From: Candidatus Omnitrophota bacterium
GTDB lineage: Bacteria > Omnitrophota > Omnitrophia > Omnitrophales > Aquincolibacteriaceae
Direction: 5' to 3'
NCBI GenBank assembly: GCA_903856085.1
Contig: CAIOAT010000012.1
Coordinates: forward strand, 1 to 39,019
Length of the DNA stretch: 39,019 nt
The position numbers were made by a program, and so were the translations under genes. Below the pieces are notes generated by a model. It saw nothing but the letters and a program-made list of their open reading frames with translations. It did no database searches and was not told the DNA's origin. This document shows, piece after piece, positions 18,441-33,388 of this stretch (the first letter of the stretch is position 1; the number at the start of each line of letters is the position of its first letter).

Positions 18441-19028
18441 ATGGCGGAATTTAAAGGAAGTAAAACAGCGGAAAACCTCATGAAGGCGTTTGCCGGAGAA
18501 TCCCAGGCGAGGATGCGTTATACCTACTATGCGTCGGCGGCTTTTAAGGAAGGTTATCGCCAGATCTCCAATATCTTCCAGGAAACGGCGGATAACGAGA
18601 AAGAACATGCCAAGCTTTTTTACAAGCAACTTCTCAAAAACGGCTTGAACGGGAATCCCATCGAGATCCATGCGAGTTATCCCGTGGCTCTTGCGGATAC
18701 GCTCAGCAATCTTAAATCTGCAGCCATGGGCGAACACGAGGAATGGACGGACCTTTACCCTTCGTTTGCGGAGGCTGCGGACAAGGAAGGTTTTTCGGAT
18801 GTTGCCAAGACCTTTCGGCAGGTGTCGATGGTCGAAAAGCGGCATGAGGCACGTTATAACAAACTCCATGACGTTTTGGAGCAGCACAAGCTTTTCGTCA
18901 AAGACGGCAAGGTCTATTGGAAATGCCTCGAGTGCGGGTATATCGTCGAGGCCTCCAAAGCGCCGGAACGTTGCCCGGTCTGCGATCATCCTCAGGGGCA
19001 CTTTGAGATCTGGATCGAGAATTATTAA
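18441..19028 (+). CDS. rbr: rubrerythrin
   Basis: Rubrerythrin is a cytosolic peroxide reductase typical of anaerobes and microaerophiles. The 195 residues comprise a ferritin-like four-helix domain with a di-iron site (FAGESQARMRY with Glu20, and the EKEHAK helix near 53-58) and a C-terminal rubredoxin-like domain with Cys162, Cys165, Cys178 and Cys181 (KCLECG ... RCPVCD). All metal ligands appear intact. A good ribosome site (GGAGG) precedes the ATG. The gene lies 34 bases before the aldolase gene and is probably cotranscribed with it. Confidence 0.95.
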   Translation: MAEFKGSKTAENLMKAFAGESQARMRYTYYASAAFKEGYRQISNIFQETADNEKEHAKLFYKQLLKNGLNGNPIEIHASYPVALADTLSNLKSAAMGEHEEWTDLYPSFAEAADKEGFSDVAKTFRQVSMVEKRHEARYNKLHDVLEQHKLFVKDGKVYWKCLECGYIVEASKAPERCPVCDHPQGHFEIWIENY

Positions 19029-19062: not shown

Positions 19063-20070
19063 ATGATCTCGTATAAACAGCTTGGTTTTGTCAACACACG
19101 CGAAATGTTCCAGAAGGCTTTCAAGGGCGGTTATGCCGTCCCGGCCTATAATTTCAACAACATGGAACAGATCCAGGCGATCGTGGTGGCCTGCGTGGAA
19201 ACGCAGTCGCCCGTGATCCTTCAGGTCTCAAGCGGCGCCCGAAAATATGCCAATCAGATCCTGTTGCAGTATATGGGGCAAGGCGCCGTGGAGATGATGA
19301 AAGCGTATGCTAAAGAAAAGGGTCTCAAGCCGATTCCGATGGCATTGCACCTCGATCATGGCGATACGCTCGAGCTTGCGAAATCCTGCATCGAAACCGG
19401 ATTTTCGTCCGTCATGATCGATGGTTCCCACCATCCTTTTGAAAAAAATATCGAGTTGACCCGGCAAGTGGTGGAGTTCGCGCATAAGAACGATGTGACC
19501 GTGGAAGGAGAGCTCGGCGTGCTTGCGGGCATTGAAGATGACGTGCACGCGGAACATTCGACTTACACCGATCCCAAGGATGTCGTGAAATTCGTAAAAG
19601 AAACGAATGTGGACTCCCTTGCGATCTCGATCGGGACCTCACACGGCGCGAACAAATTCAAGCCGGCCCAGTGCACGCGAAATGCGGATGGAATATTAAT
19701 CCCGCCGCCACTTCGTTTCGATATTTTGGAAGAAATTGAACAAAAGATCCCCGGTTTTCCGATCGTGCTTCATGGTGCGTCGTCGGTTCCCGCGGAAGCC
19801 GTCAAGATCATCAATGAGAACGGCGGCGCTCTCAAGGATTCCGTCGGGATCCCGGAAGAACAGCTCCGTAAAGCGGCGAAATCGGCCGTATGCAAAGTCA
19901 ATATCGATTCCGATGGTCGCTTGTGGATGACGGCCGCGATCCGTAAAACTTTTAAAGAGAAGCCTGCGGAATTCGACCCTCGCAAGTATCTTGGACCCGC
20001 GCGCGATGCGCTGGTGGCCATGTACAAGCACAAGAACGAACAGGTGTTAGGTTCTGCCGGGAAAGCTTAA
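19063..20070 (+). CDS. fba: class II fructose-bisphosphate aldolase
   Basis: This zinc-dependent aldolase of glycolysis/gluconeogenesis cleaves fructose-1,6-bisphosphate to dihydroxyacetone phosphate and glyceraldehyde 3-phosphate. The 335-residue TIM barrel has the zinc-binding segment LHLDHGDTLE, the VEGELG strand, the phosphate-loop GTSHGANKF, and HGASSVP. AAGGAG precedes the ATG. A tagatose-bisphosphate aldolase cannot be fully excluded, because the families are close, but the sequence reads as the fructose type. Confidence 0.93.
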   Translation: MISYKQLGFVNTREMFQKAFKGGYAVPAYNFNNMEQIQAIVVACVETQSPVILQVSSGARKYANQILLQYMGQGAVEMMKAYAKEKGLKPIPMALHLDHGDTLELAKSCIETGFSSVMIDGSHHPFEKNIELTRQVVEFAHKNDVTVEGELGVLAGIEDDVHAEHSTYTDPKDVVKFVKETNVDSLAISIGTSHGANKFKPAQCTRNADGILIPPPLRFDILEEIEQKIPGFPIVLHGASSVPAEAVKIINENGGALKDSVGIPEEQLRKAAKSAVCKVNIDSDGRLWMTAAIRKTFKEKPAEFDPRKYLGPARDALVAMYKHKNEQVLGSAGKA

Positions 20071-20099: not shown

Positions 20100-20462
20100 G
20101 TGAAAAAGATCGCTTTGGCGGTAGTCGTGTTATCGTTTTTACTTTCGGTTTCGGCGTTTGCCAAGGAAACGAAAAAAGAAGAAATGCCCGGGATGTCCAT
20201 GGATCGATCTATGGGGATGCCCATGCCTGGCATGGGACCCATAATGGGGAAAACACAAATGGTCGCGACGGATGAAGGCGGTGTGATCGTGCTCGCGGGC
20301 AATAAACTTATGAAGTACGATGCGGAACTGAATCTCGTTAAAGAGGCTGAAGTGAAAATGCCGATGGGCCCCATGGACGGCAAACAGTGTCCCTTGATGG
20401 GGAAGATGATGGATCAAAGTGCTGCGCCAGCCGGTCCGGAGTCCACAGAGAAGACCTCTTAA
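20100..20462 (+). CDS. Met-rich secreted protein, possibly metal binding
   Basis: The 120-residue product has a signal peptide (KKIALAVVVLSFLLSVSAFA). Two Met-rich clusters, GMSMDRSMGMPMPGM and KMPMGPMDGKQCPLMGKMM, flank a short strand-rich core (VATDEGGVIVLAGNKLMKY) that resembles a single beta-propeller-blade motif. Met-rich periplasmic segments commonly bind Cu(I) or Ag(I); that role is inferred only from composition. GTG at 20100 follows a strong AAGGAGG site. It sits 29 bases after the aldolase gene. Confidence 0.7.
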   Translation: MKKIALAVVVLSFLLSVSAFAKETKKEEMPGMSMDRSMGMPMPGMGPIMGKTQMVATDEGGVIVLAGNKLMKYDAELNLVKEAEVKMPMGPMDGKQCPLMGKMMDQSAAPAGPESTEKTS

Positions 20463-20485
20463 GAAATTCAACCCAAAGGCTTATA

Positions 20486-21715
20486 ATGAAAAAAAAGATC
20501 AGTTTTCTGATAGCTCTATCCCTGGTCCTTTCCCAGGCGGTCTCTTTTGGAGCGGTGACTCTGCAGGACCTCCGGCTCCCGAAGGATTTTTATCCCGCCC
20601 AGTCTCCCTACGCTAAGATTCTGTCGGTTCAGGAAAACGGCAAGTTCCCTGGATTTTTGACGTTCTCGGTCAGCTCGCCTCATGGTAACTACCTGGTTCG
20701 GGGTCTGGTGAATCTTCACCAATCTCTCCATGAGATAGACGTGATCGAACAACTTAACGCAAGCGAAAGTGCCGGGGGAGGTGTGGCGGATGGCGCGGTC
20801 GATTCCATCAAGGACACCGGAACTGGACTTAAGAATCTGGCGGTTCATCCCGTGGATTCTGTGACGGGGATCGGGAAAGGGATTGGAAAGCTAGGCGGTA
20901 AGATCGGTGGGGCTTTCCGGAAAAAAGAAGAAGGAGAAAAGGGCGATAGTTTTTTTAGTTCTACGAAAAGACAGCTCGCGAAAAAGCTTGGCGTCGACGT
21001 TTATAGCCGGAACCCGGATCTTCAGGCGAAGCTTGATTCGATGGCCAAGGCGCGCATGGGCGGCCGGGGGATAGTAACGGTTGCAACTTTTTTTGTGCCC
21101 GTGGGCTTGATCGCTTCAGCGGTTATGACGGTAAGCAATATCAATAGTGCTGCCGACCAGCTGGTGAACGACAGTGATCGCGTGGACCTTTTTAAGTTGA
21201 ATAAAAAAGCGCTTTTGGATCTTGGTTTTTCGCCAGAGAAGGTAACCCGGTTTCTGAATCACCCCTATTACACGCCGCGTGAAATAACCTACTTTCGTTT
21301 CTACCTCGAAAAACTCAAGCGTGTTCAGGGTTTTGAGGTTCTCTTGGACCAGGCCAACCAAGCAGTTTCGGATATTCCGGCGGATAAGATCCTGCATGAA
21401 GTGCAGATCGCTGCGGATTCTATTGGGGATGCCCCACGAGCAATGAAGATCGTCGTGATCCCAGAAGGACTTATTCTGGCGAACGAGGACAAGGTCGCAC
21501 TGATTACGGCCTATGATTTTTTAGACAACTCCGTTCTCGGAAGTCGGGTGACTGAAAAAGCTATCAGCTTCCGTCAAACTTTGGCCAAAAGATCCGCCGA
21601 GATATGGAACGGAGGCGCTGTCACGTCGGGATTCGGCGGAGCCATTCTCATGAAAGGCATCAAGGTTCAGCGGATGTGCCTTTTTGAATCGACCGGCAAG
21701 CCAGCCGAAATTTGA
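20486..21715 (+). CDS. secreted protein of unknown function with Gly-rich loop and hydrophobic segment
   Basis: ATG 20486 is chosen because a signal peptide starts there (MKKKISFLIALSLVLSQAVS); the open frame extends upstream into the previous gene without support. The mature protein of about 390 residues has a Gly/Val-rich stretch with TGLKNLAVHPVDSVTGIGKG and a basic patch. A hydrophobic helix (VATFFVPVGLIASAVMTV) follows, then a helical C-terminal half. I do not recognise a family. The helix pattern suggests membrane association in the envelope. It is separated by 23 bases from the Met-rich gene and is followed closely by the epimerase gene. Confidence 0.75.
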   Translation: MKKKISFLIALSLVLSQAVSFGAVTLQDLRLPKDFYPAQSPYAKILSVQENGKFPGFLTFSVSSPHGNYLVRGLVNLHQSLHEIDVIEQLNASESAGGGVADGAVDSIKDTGTGLKNLAVHPVDSVTGIGKGIGKLGGKIGGAFRKKEEGEKGDSFFSSTKRQLAKKLGVDVYSRNPDLQAKLDSMAKARMGGRGIVTVATFFVPVGLIASAVMTVSNINSAADQLVNDSDRVDLFKLNKKALLDLGFSPEKVTRFLNHPYYTPREITYFRFYLEKLKRVQGFEVLLDQANQAVSDIPADKILHEVQIAADSIGDAPRAMKIVVIPEGLILANEDKVALITAYDFLDNSVLGSRVTEKAISFRQTLAKRSAEIWNGGAVTSGFGGAILMKGIKVQRMCLFESTGKPAEI

Positions 21716-23501: not shown

Positions 23502-25280
23502 GTGACTTCCGCTTCTTTCGTCGGCTCTTTCAAAATTACTGGAAAAAAGGTTTTCATCCGCCTCAAGAACCAGATCTGTGATTCCTCAGAAGAGCTCCTC
23601 CATAGCGAACTTTTTTACGAGATTATCAAACGCGCCGTCGCAGCGCTTGACCGCCGCAAGTCCGTTCTTCTGAAGGTTTTTGGTTCCAAAGAAGTGAACG
23701 ACGCGAATGTCCGGCTTCTGATCCAGACGCTTGAGTTTCTGGAAAAGATGTCCGTCGATCTTGTCGGTCGTGTGGTGGCGGGTTCTGAAGATTTTCTTCG
23801 CGACAAGCATGCCCTCAACGATTTTGTCGAGTATCTTTACAACTATTGGCGCAGCTTTGACCGGTTCATCATTTGTGATTCCGAAGGCGAGGAATTCGAC
23901 AAGCGGCCCTTCCGTACCTTCAACGATACGATCGAGGACTTGACTGACTTGGTTCGTCGTACCTACCGTGAGATCCAGGAGAACATCACGGGAACCCATC
24001 CGCGTATTTACCGCCAGGTGGCCGCGGGTGCCGAGATGGCGGCGATCGCCTGCTCCGTCCGGGTGCCGTATCCTTCGGATCTTTATGAAAAACTGAACGC
24101 GATCCCGGTCATTCGGCAGGTGCTCTTTTATCCGCCCTTGGTTTTGAACCAGCTCAATAACACACGCGAAGGAAAGTTCGAACGGATCCAGGAAAACCCC
24201 CTCGGTCGTTTCGATCTGAAGCGCGACGAATGGCTTTGTTATCCCGTGAAGGCGGGCGATCTGCTCATTCCGGTTTATTTCAAGGAGAAGTTTTTTGAAA
24301 TGGGTCTCTCTCTTTGCAATCTCTTTGAGTTGGCCACCGATGAAGATCTCAAGCGAAAACCCGATGCGGTTTTTGTCTACGGAGCTCCGGAAAGCTCTCT
24401 GGAGTGGCCGGGTGTTTTTCCAACCGTATTTTTCGATGATGAGAAAAACGGCATGTTGGTCGGTGCGATCCCGGAATCCGACCAGTTCGGGTATTTCGGA
24501 TACCTCAAAAAAATGATCCTGACGCTCCACAACATCAAACGCATCAAGACCGGCCGCATGCCGTTTCACGGTGCTTTTATGAAGATCTACCTGAAAGGTA
24601 AAAAGCCGGCCACACTTCTGTTGATCGGGGATACGGGTGCCGGGAAATCGGAAACGCTCGAGGCGATGCGCGGTTTCGGAGTCGAAGAGATCCAGGATGT
24701 GATGGTGATCGCCGATGACATGGGATCGCTCGAGCTTCAGGCGGACGGGAGCGTTGTTGGGTACGGGACGGAGACGGGCGCGTTCCTCCGGTTGGATGAT
24801 CTGAAGCCCGGTTATGCTCTTGGGCAAATTGATCGTGCGATTATCATGAGCCCGGCGAAGGTGAATTCCAGGATTGCGTTGCCGATCACCACCTACGCGA
24901 ATATCACCCAGCCGCACGGAGTGGATTTCGTGCTTTATGCGAATAATTACGAGGATATCGATGAAGACCATCCCATCATTGAACAGTTCACGACACCGGA
25001 GGAAGCTCTGAAAGTTTTCCGCGAAGGGACGGTGATGAGCAAGGGGACCACAAAGACTACGGGGCTTGTGCACACTTACTTTTCGAATGTCTTTGGTCCC
25101 ATTCAATACAAGGCCGAGCATGATGCTCTTGCCAAAAAGTTCTTTGAGGCTTTTTTCAAGAAAGCCCTTTTTGTCGGCCAGATGCGCACGCGCTTGGGCG
25201 TTTCAGGTTGGGAGCGCAAGGGGCCCGAAGCTTCTGCGTCGGAGCTTCTGAAACTCATCCGAAGTGATGCCCGTTACTGA
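23502..25280 (+). CDS. large HPr-kinase/PEPCK-like P-loop protein
   Basis: The protein has 592 residues and starts at GTG 23502. The Walker A motif GDTGAGKS (376-383) followed by ET, and then VIADD about 20 residues later, match the GKSE(T)...ADD pattern of HPr kinase/phosphorylase and the related ATP-type PEP carboxykinase fold. After it come conserved-looking blocks such as GYGTETGAFLRLDDL and SKGTTKTTGL. The N-terminal 370 residues are not a family I can name. The reaction is unknown: protein kinase/phosphatase and PEPCK-like activity are both possible. It lies between a quinone reductase and a glucan enzyme, which would fit a role in carbon-storage control (inference). Confidence 0.7.
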   Translation: MTSASFVGSFKITGKKVFIRLKNQICDSSEELLHSELFYEIIKRAVAALDRRKSVLLKVFGSKEVNDANVRLLIQTLEFLEKMSVDLVGRVVAGSEDFLRDKHALNDFVEYLYNYWRSFDRFIICDSEGEEFDKRPFRTFNDTIEDLTDLVRRTYREIQENITGTHPRIYRQVAAGAEMAAIACSVRVPYPSDLYEKLNAIPVIRQVLFYPPLVLNQLNNTREGKFERIQENPLGRFDLKRDEWLCYPVKAGDLLIPVYFKEKFFEMGLSLCNLFELATDEDLKRKPDAVFVYGAPESSLEWPGVFPTVFFDDEKNGMLVGAIPESDQFGYFGYLKKMILTLHNIKRIKTGRMPFHGAFMKIYLKGKKPATLLLIGDTGAGKSETLEAMRGFGVEEIQDVMVIADDMGSLELQADGSVVGYGTETGAFLRLDDLKPGYALGQIDRAIIMSPAKVNSRIALPITTYANITQPHGVDFVLYANNYEDIDEDHPIIEQFTTPEEALKVFREGTVMSKGTTKTTGLVHTYFSNVFGPIQYKAEHDALAKKFFEAFFKKALFVGQMRTRLGVSGWERKGPEASASELLKLIRSDARY

Positions 25281-25468: not shown

Positions 25469-27970
25469 ATGGCCAAAGAAATTTGCATTTGCCTTCACGG
25501 GCATTTTTACCAGCCCCCACGGGAAAATCCGTGGATCGAAGAGATTGAACAGCAGGATAGCGCCGCTCCTTTTCACGACTGGAACGAGCGCATCCATTAC
25601 GAATGCTATCATCCTAATTCCCGTGCCCGCGCGCTTGACGCCCGAGGGAAAATCGTCGAGATCGTCAATAATTTCGAGCGCACAAGCTTCAATTTCGGTC
25701 CTACGCTCCTTTCCTGGCTTGAGATCAAGCACCCCGATACCTACCGGAGCATTCTTCATGCCGATCGCGCAAGTTGTGAAGCGCATCGCGGTCACGGGAA
25801 TGCTATTGCCCAGGTCTACAATCACATGATCATGCCGTTGGCGAACCTGCGGGACAAGAAGACGCAGGTACGTTGGGGGATCGAGGATTTCCGCTCTCGG
25901 TTCAGCCGCTATCCTGAGAGCGTTTGGCTGCCTGAGACCGCCTGCAATGAGGAGACGCTCGAGGTGTTGGTCGCGGAACGGATCAAATTCATCATTCTTT
26001 CACCGCATCAGGCAAGGGCTGTTCGGCCGCTTGAGGGCGGGGCGTGGCAGGATGTGTTGGGTGGACGCATCGATCCCAAGGAGCCGTACCGCTATTTTCT
26101 CAAGAATAATCCCTCGCTCTATATTGATATTTTTTTCTACGACGGGCCCATTTCCAAAGCCGTGGGTTTCGACAATCTGCTTTTCGATGCGAAGCTCTTT
26201 ATGAAACGGCTCGAAAGCGCGGTCGTGCAGCATGAACGTTCTCAGCTCATCCATATTGCGACTGACGGCGAGACTTATGGTCATCACAAGGCCTATGGCG
26301 ATCGCGTGCTCGCGTATCTCACCTACATGGAGATTCCGCGGCATGGATATCGGCTGGTCAATTACGCGGAATTTCTTGAAGAAAATCCGCCGCGCCAGGA
26401 GGTGCGGCTGATCGAAGGGGAGAATAATGAAGGGACTTCCTGGAGTTGTGCGCATGGTGTCGCGAGGTGGAAAGACCATTGCGGCTGCCGGGGCGATGGG
26501 CCTGCCAGCTGGACCCAGCATTGGCGCAAGCCCCTTCGCTGGGCGCTCGATTGGCTGCGGGATGAGCTAGCGCAAGTCTATGAAAGGGAGGGTGCCAAAT
26601 ATCTGAAGGATGTTTGGGCCGCTCGTGACGATTATATTCATGTGGTCTTGAAGCGGACTCCCGAAACCCTTCACGAATTCTTTGACCGTCAGGCCTTACG
26701 AGAGCTTTCCAAAGAGGAGATTACGACGAGTCTCAAACTTCTGGAAATGCAGCGTAACCTCATGTTGATGTATACAAGTTGCGGCTGGTTCTTCTCAGAA
26801 CTTTCGGGGCTTGAAACTATCCAGATCCTTCAGTACGCATCGCGGGCCATTCATCTCGCGCGGGAGGTGAGCGGTGTGAATTTTGAGCGGGATTTTCTCG
26901 AGCATCTTGCTCTTGCGAAAAGTAACATTGAGTCCATCAAAGACGGACAAGGCGTTTATGAAAAATTCGTAAAACCAGCGCTGGCCACGCTTCACCATGT
27001 GGTGAGCTACTACGCCATCGGCTCCATTTTCGAGAATTTCTATGCGCCGGACTCCAAAACGGACATCGTCAAGATCTTCAATTTCGATCTGCATGTTCTG
27101 CATCAGCGTAAGGAATTCTTCGGTACGGTGACCATGAATTTCGGACGCGTGCGCATCGTTTCTCAGACCACGCTGGAAGAACAGGATCTTGTTTTCGTGG
27201 TGATCCAGATCGGCTTTTATGATTTCCGCTGCTCCGTGAAACCTTATGGAGGTGAAGAAGAGTTTGATAAGCTCGAAAGGGAGCTTTTCGAAGCGCTTTA
27301 TCAGTTGCCGATCCTTGATCTTTCCAAGAAGATCGACGTCTTTTTTGGCGAGACTTATTATGCCCTGAAAGACCTGCGGCTCGGCGACCGCGCGAAGATC
27401 ATCAGCATTCTGACGCATGAGACGATCGCGAAGGTCAGCAATTTTTATGAGCACATTTATGAAGAAAACCTGCGCATGAACGAGATCTATCGCTCGATCA
27501 ATGTGCCGATCCCGGTGGAGTTCCGTTACGCGGCCGAGCATACGCTGAGCAAGCGCATGATGGAGGCTGTGAAGGACTGGGGCGAGCGTGGTTTCCCGGC
27601 CAAGCGAACGCTTTCCATTTACCGGATCATGGATTCCGCGAAGGCGCTGGATGTCCACATTCACAAGGAACCGCTCGCACATTATCTGAGCGCAGAACTG
27701 TGCAAAGGCCTCCGGGAGTTCATCGCGGGGCTCGACCCCGAGGTTTTACAGAAGCTTCTTTCCATCCTTCGGCTTGCCAAAAAGATCGAAGTTTTCCTCG
27801 ATAAACGTGAGGCTCAGGATGATCTTTTCGCCCTTTTCCGTTCCTGGAAGGGAAGTCCTCAGGCCATTCCTCAGGTCATCCGGGACGAGGAGGTCCATCT
27901 CCATCAGTTGATGGACGAGCTCGATCTTTCCGGCGATAAGCTGAAAAAAATCCTTAGTTCAGGTGGCTAG
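25469..27970 (+). CDS. GH57 family glycoside hydrolase with DUF3536 domain
   Basis: The 833-residue protein starts with the GH57 hallmark LHGHFYQPPRENPW (His10, His12). It continues with WLPET (Glu156, where GH57 enzymes keep the catalytic nucleophile region) and IATDGETYGHH (Asp266, acid/base region). The long C-terminal half is the DUF3536 type that accompanies this GH57 subgroup. Known GH57 members are alpha-amylases, branching enzymes and glucanotransferases that act on glycogen-like glucans. No signal peptide is visible, so a cytosolic glycogen role is likely. The precise activity cannot be assigned. Confidence 0.88.
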   Translation: MAKEICICLHGHFYQPPRENPWIEEIEQQDSAAPFHDWNERIHYECYHPNSRARALDARGKIVEIVNNFERTSFNFGPTLLSWLEIKHPDTYRSILHADRASCEAHRGHGNAIAQVYNHMIMPLANLRDKKTQVRWGIEDFRSRFSRYPESVWLPETACNEETLEVLVAERIKFIILSPHQARAVRPLEGGAWQDVLGGRIDPKEPYRYFLKNNPSLYIDIFFYDGPISKAVGFDNLLFDAKLFMKRLESAVVQHERSQLIHIATDGETYGHHKAYGDRVLAYLTYMEIPRHGYRLVNYAEFLEENPPRQEVRLIEGENNEGTSWSCAHGVARWKDHCGCRGDGPASWTQHWRKPLRWALDWLRDELAQVYEREGAKYLKDVWAARDDYIHVVLKRTPETLHEFFDRQALRELSKEEITTSLKLLEMQRNLMLMYTSCGWFFSELSGLETIQILQYASRAIHLAREVSGVNFERDFLEHLALAKSNIESIKDGQGVYEKFVKPALATLHHVVSYYAIGSIFENFYAPDSKTDIVKIFNFDLHVLHQRKEFFGTVTMNFGRVRIVSQTTLEEQDLVFVVIQIGFYDFRCSVKPYGGEEEFDKLERELFEALYQLPILDLSKKIDVFFGETYYALKDLRLGDRAKIISILTHETIAKVSNFYEHIYEENLRMNEIYRSINVPIPVEFRYAAEHTLSKRMMEAVKDWGERGFPAKRTLSIYRIMDSAKALDVHIHKEPLAHYLSAELCKGLREFIAGLDPEVLQKLLSILRLAKKIEVFLDKREAQDDLFALFRSWKGSPQAIPQVIRDEEVHLHQLMDELDLSGDKLKKILSSGG

Positions 27971-32620: not shown

Positions 32621-33388
32621 ATGAAAAGAAACGCTCTCATTCTCGCTATCCTGTTTGTGACGGGTTGCGCCCACAGCCCGTGTCAAAAGGACGTTGTTTT
32701 TCAGAATGCGCCTATCAACGCCCTCCTGGCGGGATGCTACAGCGGGACGATGAGCGTTCACGATCTTAAAAAACACGGCGATTTTGGTTTCGGCACCCTT
32801 GACTCACTCGACGGAGAAATGGTTGCTCTCGACAATGCCTTCTATCAGATAAAACCGGACGGAAAGGCGCGTCTCTTGAAAGATGAGGAAGCGAGCCCGT
32901 TCGCGACCGTGATGTTTTTTCACGCTCGACAGGAATTGTTCCCGGAACGGGAGATGGGATACAAGGAACTAATGGGATTTCTAGATAAAGACATACCTTC
33001 CGAGAATCTGATCTATGCGATCAAAGTCGAAGGAAGATTTTCTTCGCTCAAGGTCCGTAGTGCGGCCCGCCAAAAGAAGCCTTTTTCGGTCCTGACCGAA
33101 GCGATCAAGGCACAGAAAGTTTTTGAATTAAAGGACCAGGAAGGAACACTGGTGGGGTTCAGGTTTCCGGCCTATGCGGAGGGGATCAATGTCTCGGGGT
33201 ATCATTTTCATTTCTTAAACAAAGATAAAACCTTGGGCGGACATGTGTTGGATCTGCGAGTGGAAGGGGCCCGAGTTCAGATCGATAAAAGTCATGCTTT
33301 CTCGATGGCGTTCCCGGAGAACGAAGAATTTCTGAAATATCGTTTTGAAACAGATTCCAAGGAAGCGATCCGGAAAATCGAAAAATAA
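32621..33388 (+). CDS. lipoprotein, unknown function
   Basis: The 255-residue product has signal peptide KRNALILAILFVTGC with the lipobox Cys at 16, so it is membrane-anchored in the envelope. The mature sequence begins AHSPCQKDVVFQNAPINALL. It closely resembles the start of bacterial alpha-acetolactate decarboxylases, and segments such as HGDFGFGTLDSLDGEMVALDN and the late GGHVLDLRV region fit that fold as well. An exported acetolactate decarboxylase-like protein would be unusual, so I give it as a candidate only. It sits between the PNPOx-like gene and the etfBA pair. Confidence 0.7.
   Translation: MKRNALILAILFVTGCAHSPCQKDVVFQNAPINALLAGCYSGTMSVHDLKKHGDFGFGTLDSLDGEMVALDNAFYQIKPDGKARLLKDEEASPFATVMFFHARQELFPEREMGYKELMGFLDKDIPSENLIYAIKVEGRFSSLKVRSAARQKKPFSVLTEAIKAQKVFELKDQEGTLVGFRFPAYAEGINVSGYHFHFLNKDKTLGGHVLDLRVEGARVQIDKSHAFSMAFPENEEFLKYRFETDSKEAIRKIEK

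Follow-up and report, generated by a model that had tools for sequence, protein, structure and literature searches.

Phosphoenolpyruvate carboxykinases (PEPCKs) lead from TCA-cycle acids to sugar synthesis and are presented as ATP-, GTP-, or PPi-dependent enzymes in the account given by PMC8100219, while the loops of the fold are named in PMC12529880 as the R-loop, the P-loop, and the Omega-loop lid. The described systems closest to the gene examined here include: (i) ATP-PEPCK (PF01293, EC 4.1.1.49), represented by E. coli Pck; (ii) GTP-PEPCK (PF00821, EC 4.1.1.32); and (iii) HPr kinase/phosphorylase (PF07475, TIGR00679). The window analyzed, a 39,019-nucleotide stretch of an Omnitrophota genome, encodes a 592-residue protein, here called Q, which by model and alignment has in common with ATP-PEPCK the two-lobed fold, the P-loop, the DD pair, and the mobile lid, as well as the R-loop Arg, the Y/K/K set, the His, and a TENTR-type Arg. 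Q differs from ATP-PEPCK in carrying an extra 181-residue N-terminal domain, in a chain that ends near E. coli residue 469, in having YFGYLKK rather than YGGEMKK and GKS rather than GKT, and in forming a separate deep clade. GTP-PEPCK has the fold predicted for Q (Z about 19 by VIA-align against the Q model), whereas the profile comparison with Q was not significant (E 0.011, probability 3.9%) and a separate GTP-PEPCK is encoded in the genome of the window. HPr kinase/phosphorylase has the GxxGxGKSE P-loop and ADD in common with Q; however, Q is below every cut-off for that family, is twice its length, and has a full PEPCK N-lobe.

The open reading frame of Q, listed with its parts in Table 1, was found to be real, as the preliminary description had proposed, and the GDTGAGKSET and ADD motifs pointed out there lie at residues 376-385 and 404-406. 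The end of the upstream gene is 10 bp from the start of Q, and the GTG start is plausible because the homologues begin at the same place. A 511-codon antisense ORF opposite Q (window 23586-25121, minus strand) is probably a shadow of codon use.

Table 1. Features of Q and of associated genes; positions are those of the window unless a locus record is named.
Feature	Position	Strand	Basis or remark
Q, PEPCK-superfamily protein as modelled, 592 aa, GTG start	23502..25280	+	
N-terminal extension, residues 1-181	23502..24044	+	mostly helical, without significant fold match
Complete two-lobed PEPCK fold (predicted), residues 182-592	24045..25277	+	model and profile comparison
R222 (E. coli Pck R65), substrate-binding R-loop	24165..24167	+	alignment; invariant 41/41
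YFGYLKK, residues 331-337; Y331, K336, K337 (E. coli Y207, K212, K213)	24492..24512	+	
H356 (E. coli H232)	24567..24569	+	alignment
P-loop GDTGAGKSET, residues 376-385; K382, S383 (E. coli K254, T255)	24627..24656	+	
ADD, residues 404-406; D405, D406 (E. coli D268, D269)	24711..24719	+	
R457 (E. coli R333)	24870..24872	+	alignment
MSKGTTKTTGLVHTYF, residues 512-527, aligned to PEPCK mobile lid	25035..25082	+	
GH57-DUF3536 gene, next downstream of Q	25469..27970	+	
Class II fructose-bisphosphate aldolase, upstream of Q	19063..20070	+	
CxxCxxCC (PF03692) protein upstream of Q in other loci	L081 9568-10203; L082 9084-9725; L083 7884-8540; L025 7387-7983		

The AlphaFold model of Q, computed with a 36-row alignment, reached a pLDDT of 86.8 and a pTM of 0.88. 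Among the 50 Foldseek matches listed for this model all were PEPCKs (best E 2.1e-14), and the best VIA-align match was to the Thermus ATP-PEPCK (Z 21.1, 356 aligned residues, rmsd 3.5), over model residues 186-592. Residues 182 to about 350 are predicted to form the N-lobe of the PEPCK fold; thus the "unknown N-terminal half" of the preliminary description narrows to residues 1-181. Since residues 182-592 cover both PEPCK lobes, the resemblance goes beyond the kinase core common to HPr kinase. A match to a characterized family was found at the level of fold for residues 182-592, and did not extend to an assigned reaction. Profile comparison by hhalign of residues 182-592 with an alignment of 18 ATP-PEPCKs from E. 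coli and Omnitrophota gave a probability of 93% (E 3.6e-7), which rose to 98% (E 1.7e-13) when divergent members were added on both sides. Against a real score of 107.3, none of the 40 column shuffles exceeded 24.7 and reversing the profile gave 21.2; after masking of residues 370-412, which include the P-loop and ADD, the score was 71.5 (probability 95.6%). These profile alignments argue for a PEPCK relationship by sequence that is independent of the fold.

Neither Pfam nor NCBIfam profiles matched Q above cut-off, PF01293 gave no row for Q itself at E <= 1, PF00821 was absent from its Pfam rows, and a PDB sequence search (phmmer with Q, hmmsearch with profile A1) returned no PEPCK, most of the rows being chance matches to the P-loop. 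PF01293 did match the two most divergent relatives of Q (E 2.1e-5 and 8.5e-5) and, at E <= 0.001, five of the 29 members found in Omnitrophota, the best score among relatives being 23.9 bits against a Pfam cut-off of 26.5. As modelled, Q is a member of the PEPCK superfamily with both lobes present.

When predicted alone, residues 1-181 formed a mostly helical domain (pLDDT 81.6), for which comparison with the PDB gave results that we read as no match by Foldseek (best E 0.61) or by VIA-align (best Z 4.8, to globins). The extension is taken to be under constraint because 13 of the 81 positions in residues 101-181 are invariant (16%); the density elsewhere is 12% in residues 182-330 and 26% in residues 331-592. 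A Limosilactobacillus fermentum relative shares the second half of the extension, the BLAST alignment beginning at Q residue 98. The domain probably serves oligomerisation or regulation, and the extension may act in site shaping, effector binding, or oligomer formation.

Residues of Q were mapped to E. coli Pck in a joint MAFFT alignment, and conservation was scored in 41 family members. Besides the ten pairs of Table 1, the alignment placed E. coli S250 at Q T378; we take these eleven E. coli positions to belong to the active site, with H232 presumably a metal ligand. PDB mutant-structure titles among the Foldseek matches name R65, Y207, K212, K213, S250, K254, and D269. Ten of the eleven positions were found to be invariant in all 41 members, nine of them with the E. 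coli residue and that of T255 as Ser; at the S250 position, Thr occurs in 36 members and Ser in 5. Counterparts of the R-loop, the P-loop, and the mobile lid were all matched in Q, the lid from the alignment and from low pLDDT: residues 518-527, inside the lid-aligned segment, have the lowest model confidence (pLDDT under 50), which agrees with a mobile loop because a flexible lid is expected to behave in this way. Two other positions depart from E. coli Pck. Where that enzyme has the glutamate of YGGE, 41/41 members have Tyr, and R449, which we assume to be an adenine-side residue of ATP-PEPCK, has no aligned partner in Q, in a region where the alignment is unsure. Because of these two differences, the phosphate donor may not be that of ATP-PEPCK.

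Relatives of Q with 38-91% identity, which speak against a chance reading frame, were detected in 42 genome records, a set obtained by scanning contigs with short peptide patterns of the query, such that distant members are under-counted; it overlaps with a second set of 29 carriers among 193 Omnitrophota genomes, most records in both are MAGs, and one (L036) has masked stretches (X). By record titles the family spans about ten phyla, with the majority in Omnitrophota and other carriers in KSB1, Delongbacteria, Neomarinimicrobiota, Anaerolineae/Chloroflexi, Deltaproteobacteria, Actinomycetota, Bacteroidales, and Propionigenium maris. Identities across phyla are about 53-63% (38% for P. maris), which implies strong constraint on Q. 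A plasmid of L. fermentum encodes a relative (AYP99509.1, 569 aa, 37.6% identity over 82% of Q) that falls inside the Q clade and has the same active-site residues, though its N-terminus is shorter and its name is an annotation only. In a tree of 33 rows the Q family came out as a single clade (100/100), whose stem, at 3.85 changes per column, is similar in length to the GTP-PEPCK stem (4.64), and fell outside ATP-PEPCK; its exact place is unsure, as long branches may attract, and since long branches meet in this tree only the separateness of the clade is claimed. Most likely the Q family represents a third, deeply separated branch among the nucleotide-dependent PEPCKs, one that carries an additional domain at its N-terminus. 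In the open literature searched, which leaves most subscription journals outside, no paper was found on this family, nor any on DUF4914 by name; the latter (PF16260) matched two relatives of Q weakly at the P-loop, with E values of 0.003 and 0.016. P. maris (G232) also encodes a 555-residue, very divergent ATP-PEPCK-like protein (L092 361-2025; PF01293, 64.6 bits), which by BLAST is nearer to Q (E 2.6e-8) than to E. coli Pck (E 1.9e-4).

Most carriers were found to encode a canonical PEPCK in addition to Q. The window's own genome has a GTP-PEPCK and an HPr gene, with no ATP-PEPCK or HPr kinase found, and the idea that Q is the missing PEPCK of this genome is thereby ruled out. Canonical enzymes occur in 24 of the 29 Omnitrophota carriers (ATP-PEPCK in 10, GTP-PEPCK in 14) and in 35 of the 42 records (PF01293 above cut-off in 21, GTP-PEPCK in 14); none was detected in G032, G087, G103, G143, and G158 of the former set or in L010, L012, L025, L027, L032, L037, and L038 of the latter. 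Q is therefore better seen as an extra enzyme than simply as a missing PEPCK, and because it usually coexists with the canonical one, the two are likely to differ in direction, donor, or substrate and so to share the work. In G113 and G154, which belong to one genus, the genes for ATP-PEPCK, a CxxCxxCC protein (PF03692), and Q lie in a tight run, spaced or overlapping by a few bases, that looks like one operon. The gene for the CxxCxxCC protein, of about 200 residues, comes immediately before Q in four loci (Table 1): in two it sits between ATP-PEPCK and Q, and it also precedes Q in G087 (L083) and L025, both with no canonical PEPCK detected.

A conserved operon was ruled out, as the neighbours of Q vary widely outside the window's own family; part of the neighbours were scanned with Pfam, and at some loci their ORFs are greedy longest-ORF guesses. 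An aldolase cluster (class II fructose-bisphosphate aldolase) was found near Q in 6 of the 43 loci examined. Other neighbours include an alpha-acetolactate decarboxylase gene (PF03306), a few genes downstream of Q in the window (32621-33388) and immediately before Q in L035 (6988-7755), a record that bears the name Deltaproteobacteria, and rubrerythrin-type proteins of one cluster, near Q in the window (18441-19028) and directly after it in L042 (9795-10367). A 442-residue protein (window 20387-21715), which falls in no NCBIfam family and has no Pfam row with E below 0.5, is conserved upstream of Q in eight loci of near relatives, and a CAP12/Pycsar-effector TIR-domain protein is encoded one gene away from Q in L084 (8498-9151, minus strand).

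The GH57-DUF3536 gene that had been reported beside Q is indeed present, and such genes occur in 71 of the 193 Omnitrophota genomes: in 28 of the 29 Q carriers vs 43 of the 164 genomes without Q. The lone carrier without it is G084, in which the Q match covers positions 1-391 only. This co-occurrence (Fisher p 2.4e-13, 193 genomes) is confounded by kinship, and it lacks significance when only the window's own family is considered (p 0.27). By coordinates GH57-DUF3536 is the next gene after Q in 10/29 carriers, all in that family. Outside Omnitrophota, DUF3536 was detected in just 5 of 16 carriers (L019, L029, L032, L035, and L037, with partial matches in L029 and L032 and a weaker one in L019, titled only "Bacterium"; L023, titled Aceula, was placed with Omnitrophota on the ground that the places found in its genome coincide with those of G176), which rules out an obligate partnership. 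The suggestion that Q serves carbon storage thus gains some support from co-occurrence, but the two genes are adjacent only inside the window's own family. For a DUF3536 GH57 protein of Pontibacter, located in a glycogen locus, PMC11206854 suggests a 4-alpha-glucanotransferase.

Q is most likely, in our judgment by a modest measure, a carboxykinase of this third PEPCK branch that acts on oxaloacetate/PEP or a close keto acid. From the computed fold, collinearity, and residue identities we infer the reaction, substrate, donor, and direction as follows. Mn2+ and the R-loop side (R222, Y331, and K337) would hold a beta-keto acid, most likely oxaloacetate; metal-assisted decarboxylation would yield an enolate; and the enolate would be phosphorylated by a donor bound on the P-loop side (K382, S383, D405/D406, and R457) beneath the mobile lid. 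The reverse direction, PEP carboxylation, would be equally possible. Q probably functions in gluconeogenesis towards glycogen or, alongside the canonical PEPCK, as an anaplerotic isozyme. The carboxykinase assignment is favoured by the naming of the L. fermentum relative as a phosphoenolpyruvate carboxykinase and by the gene run with ATP-PEPCK in G113 and G154. Against it, no activity is known for any member examined, PF01293 gives no row for Q and scores even its best relatives below cut-off, the same reaction would be redundant in the 24/29 and 35/42 carriers with a canonical enzyme, R449 is unpartnered and the YGGE glutamate replaced, canonical PEPCK has nothing that corresponds to the conserved extension, and a common fold with common residues is no proof of substrate. 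More tentatively, the family may amount to a third carboxykinase class, separated from ATP-PEPCK by roughly the distance that separates GTP-PEPCK from it. Such a class would have an N-terminal domain of its own, might use another donor or keto acid, and would operate alongside the canonical enzyme in anaerobes from many phyla. If an additional branch this widespread has an intact active site, metabolic models of uncultivated bacteria would gain a node enzyme, and Q could fill a gap in the 7/42 carriers in which no canonical PEPCK was detected; the cultured P. maris and L. fermentum carry members that could be assayed.

The separate clade with its long stem, the coexistence with canonical PEPCK, the invariant positions of residues 101-181, and the invariant Tyr in place of the YGGE glutamate would also suit a PEPCK-fold kinase or carboxykinase whose substrate is another small molecule and whose N-terminal domain alters which substrate is chosen. 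We regard this as unlikely though worth serious weight, given that every PEPCK substrate-side residue checked is invariant and a substrate unlike oxaloacetate/PEP is thus hard to explain. PEPCK chemistry with PPi or another unusual donor, a sub-case that overlaps with the carboxykinase assignment, is suggested by the unpartnered R449 and by a proton-pumping pyrophosphatase encoded right downstream of Q in L015; we hold it to be quite improbable, since that neighbour was found at only one of the loci scanned and the unaligned R449 end may be an alignment fault. A role for Q in regulating or modulating canonical PEPCK or glucan metabolism, as a partner that binds the same ligands, would fit the tight run with ATP-PEPCK in one genus and the adjoining GH57-DUF3536 gene in 10/29 Omnitrophota carriers, but appears quite improbable when all mapped catalytic residues are kept, canonical PEPCK went undetected in 5/29 and 7/42 carriers, and the neighbours differ elsewhere.

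The preliminary description had also proposed an HPr-kinase/PEPCK-like protein, of which the evidence favours the PEPCK part and not the HPr kinase part. Its remarks that Q is nearly twice the length of HPr kinase (592 aa vs 300 positions in TIGR00679) and lacks other marks of that family (Hpr_kinase_C 11.4 bits against a cut-off of 33.3) proved correct; Hpr_kinase_N was absent among the Pfam rows of Q at E <= 1, a search whose HMMER filters let few weak rows through. An HPr kinase/phosphorylase-like protein kinase has next to no likelihood, since the P-loop with ADD, the weak Hpr_kinase_C/TIGR00679 rows (E 0.24 for Q; 0.014 and 0.015 for its relative L034), and the HPr gene in the same genome are set against rows far below cut-off, a whole PEPCK N-lobe including R222, Y331, K336, and K337, and a similarity to PEPCK that persists with the P-loop masked. 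HPr kinase identity is ruled out by the profile scores and the N-lobe, and the suggested regulatory protein kinase is not supported in view of the failing HPr kinase profiles, the retained PEPCK-type substrate residues, and a genome search that found HPr and no HPr kinase. As to that HPr gene, the 710- and 1000-residue pieces flanking its repeats had no Pfam match; the repeats are three PTS-HPr domains (PF00381; G000:C49:13957-14886, minus strand, L096) within one 7,884-codon frame, a giant gene with HPr repeats.
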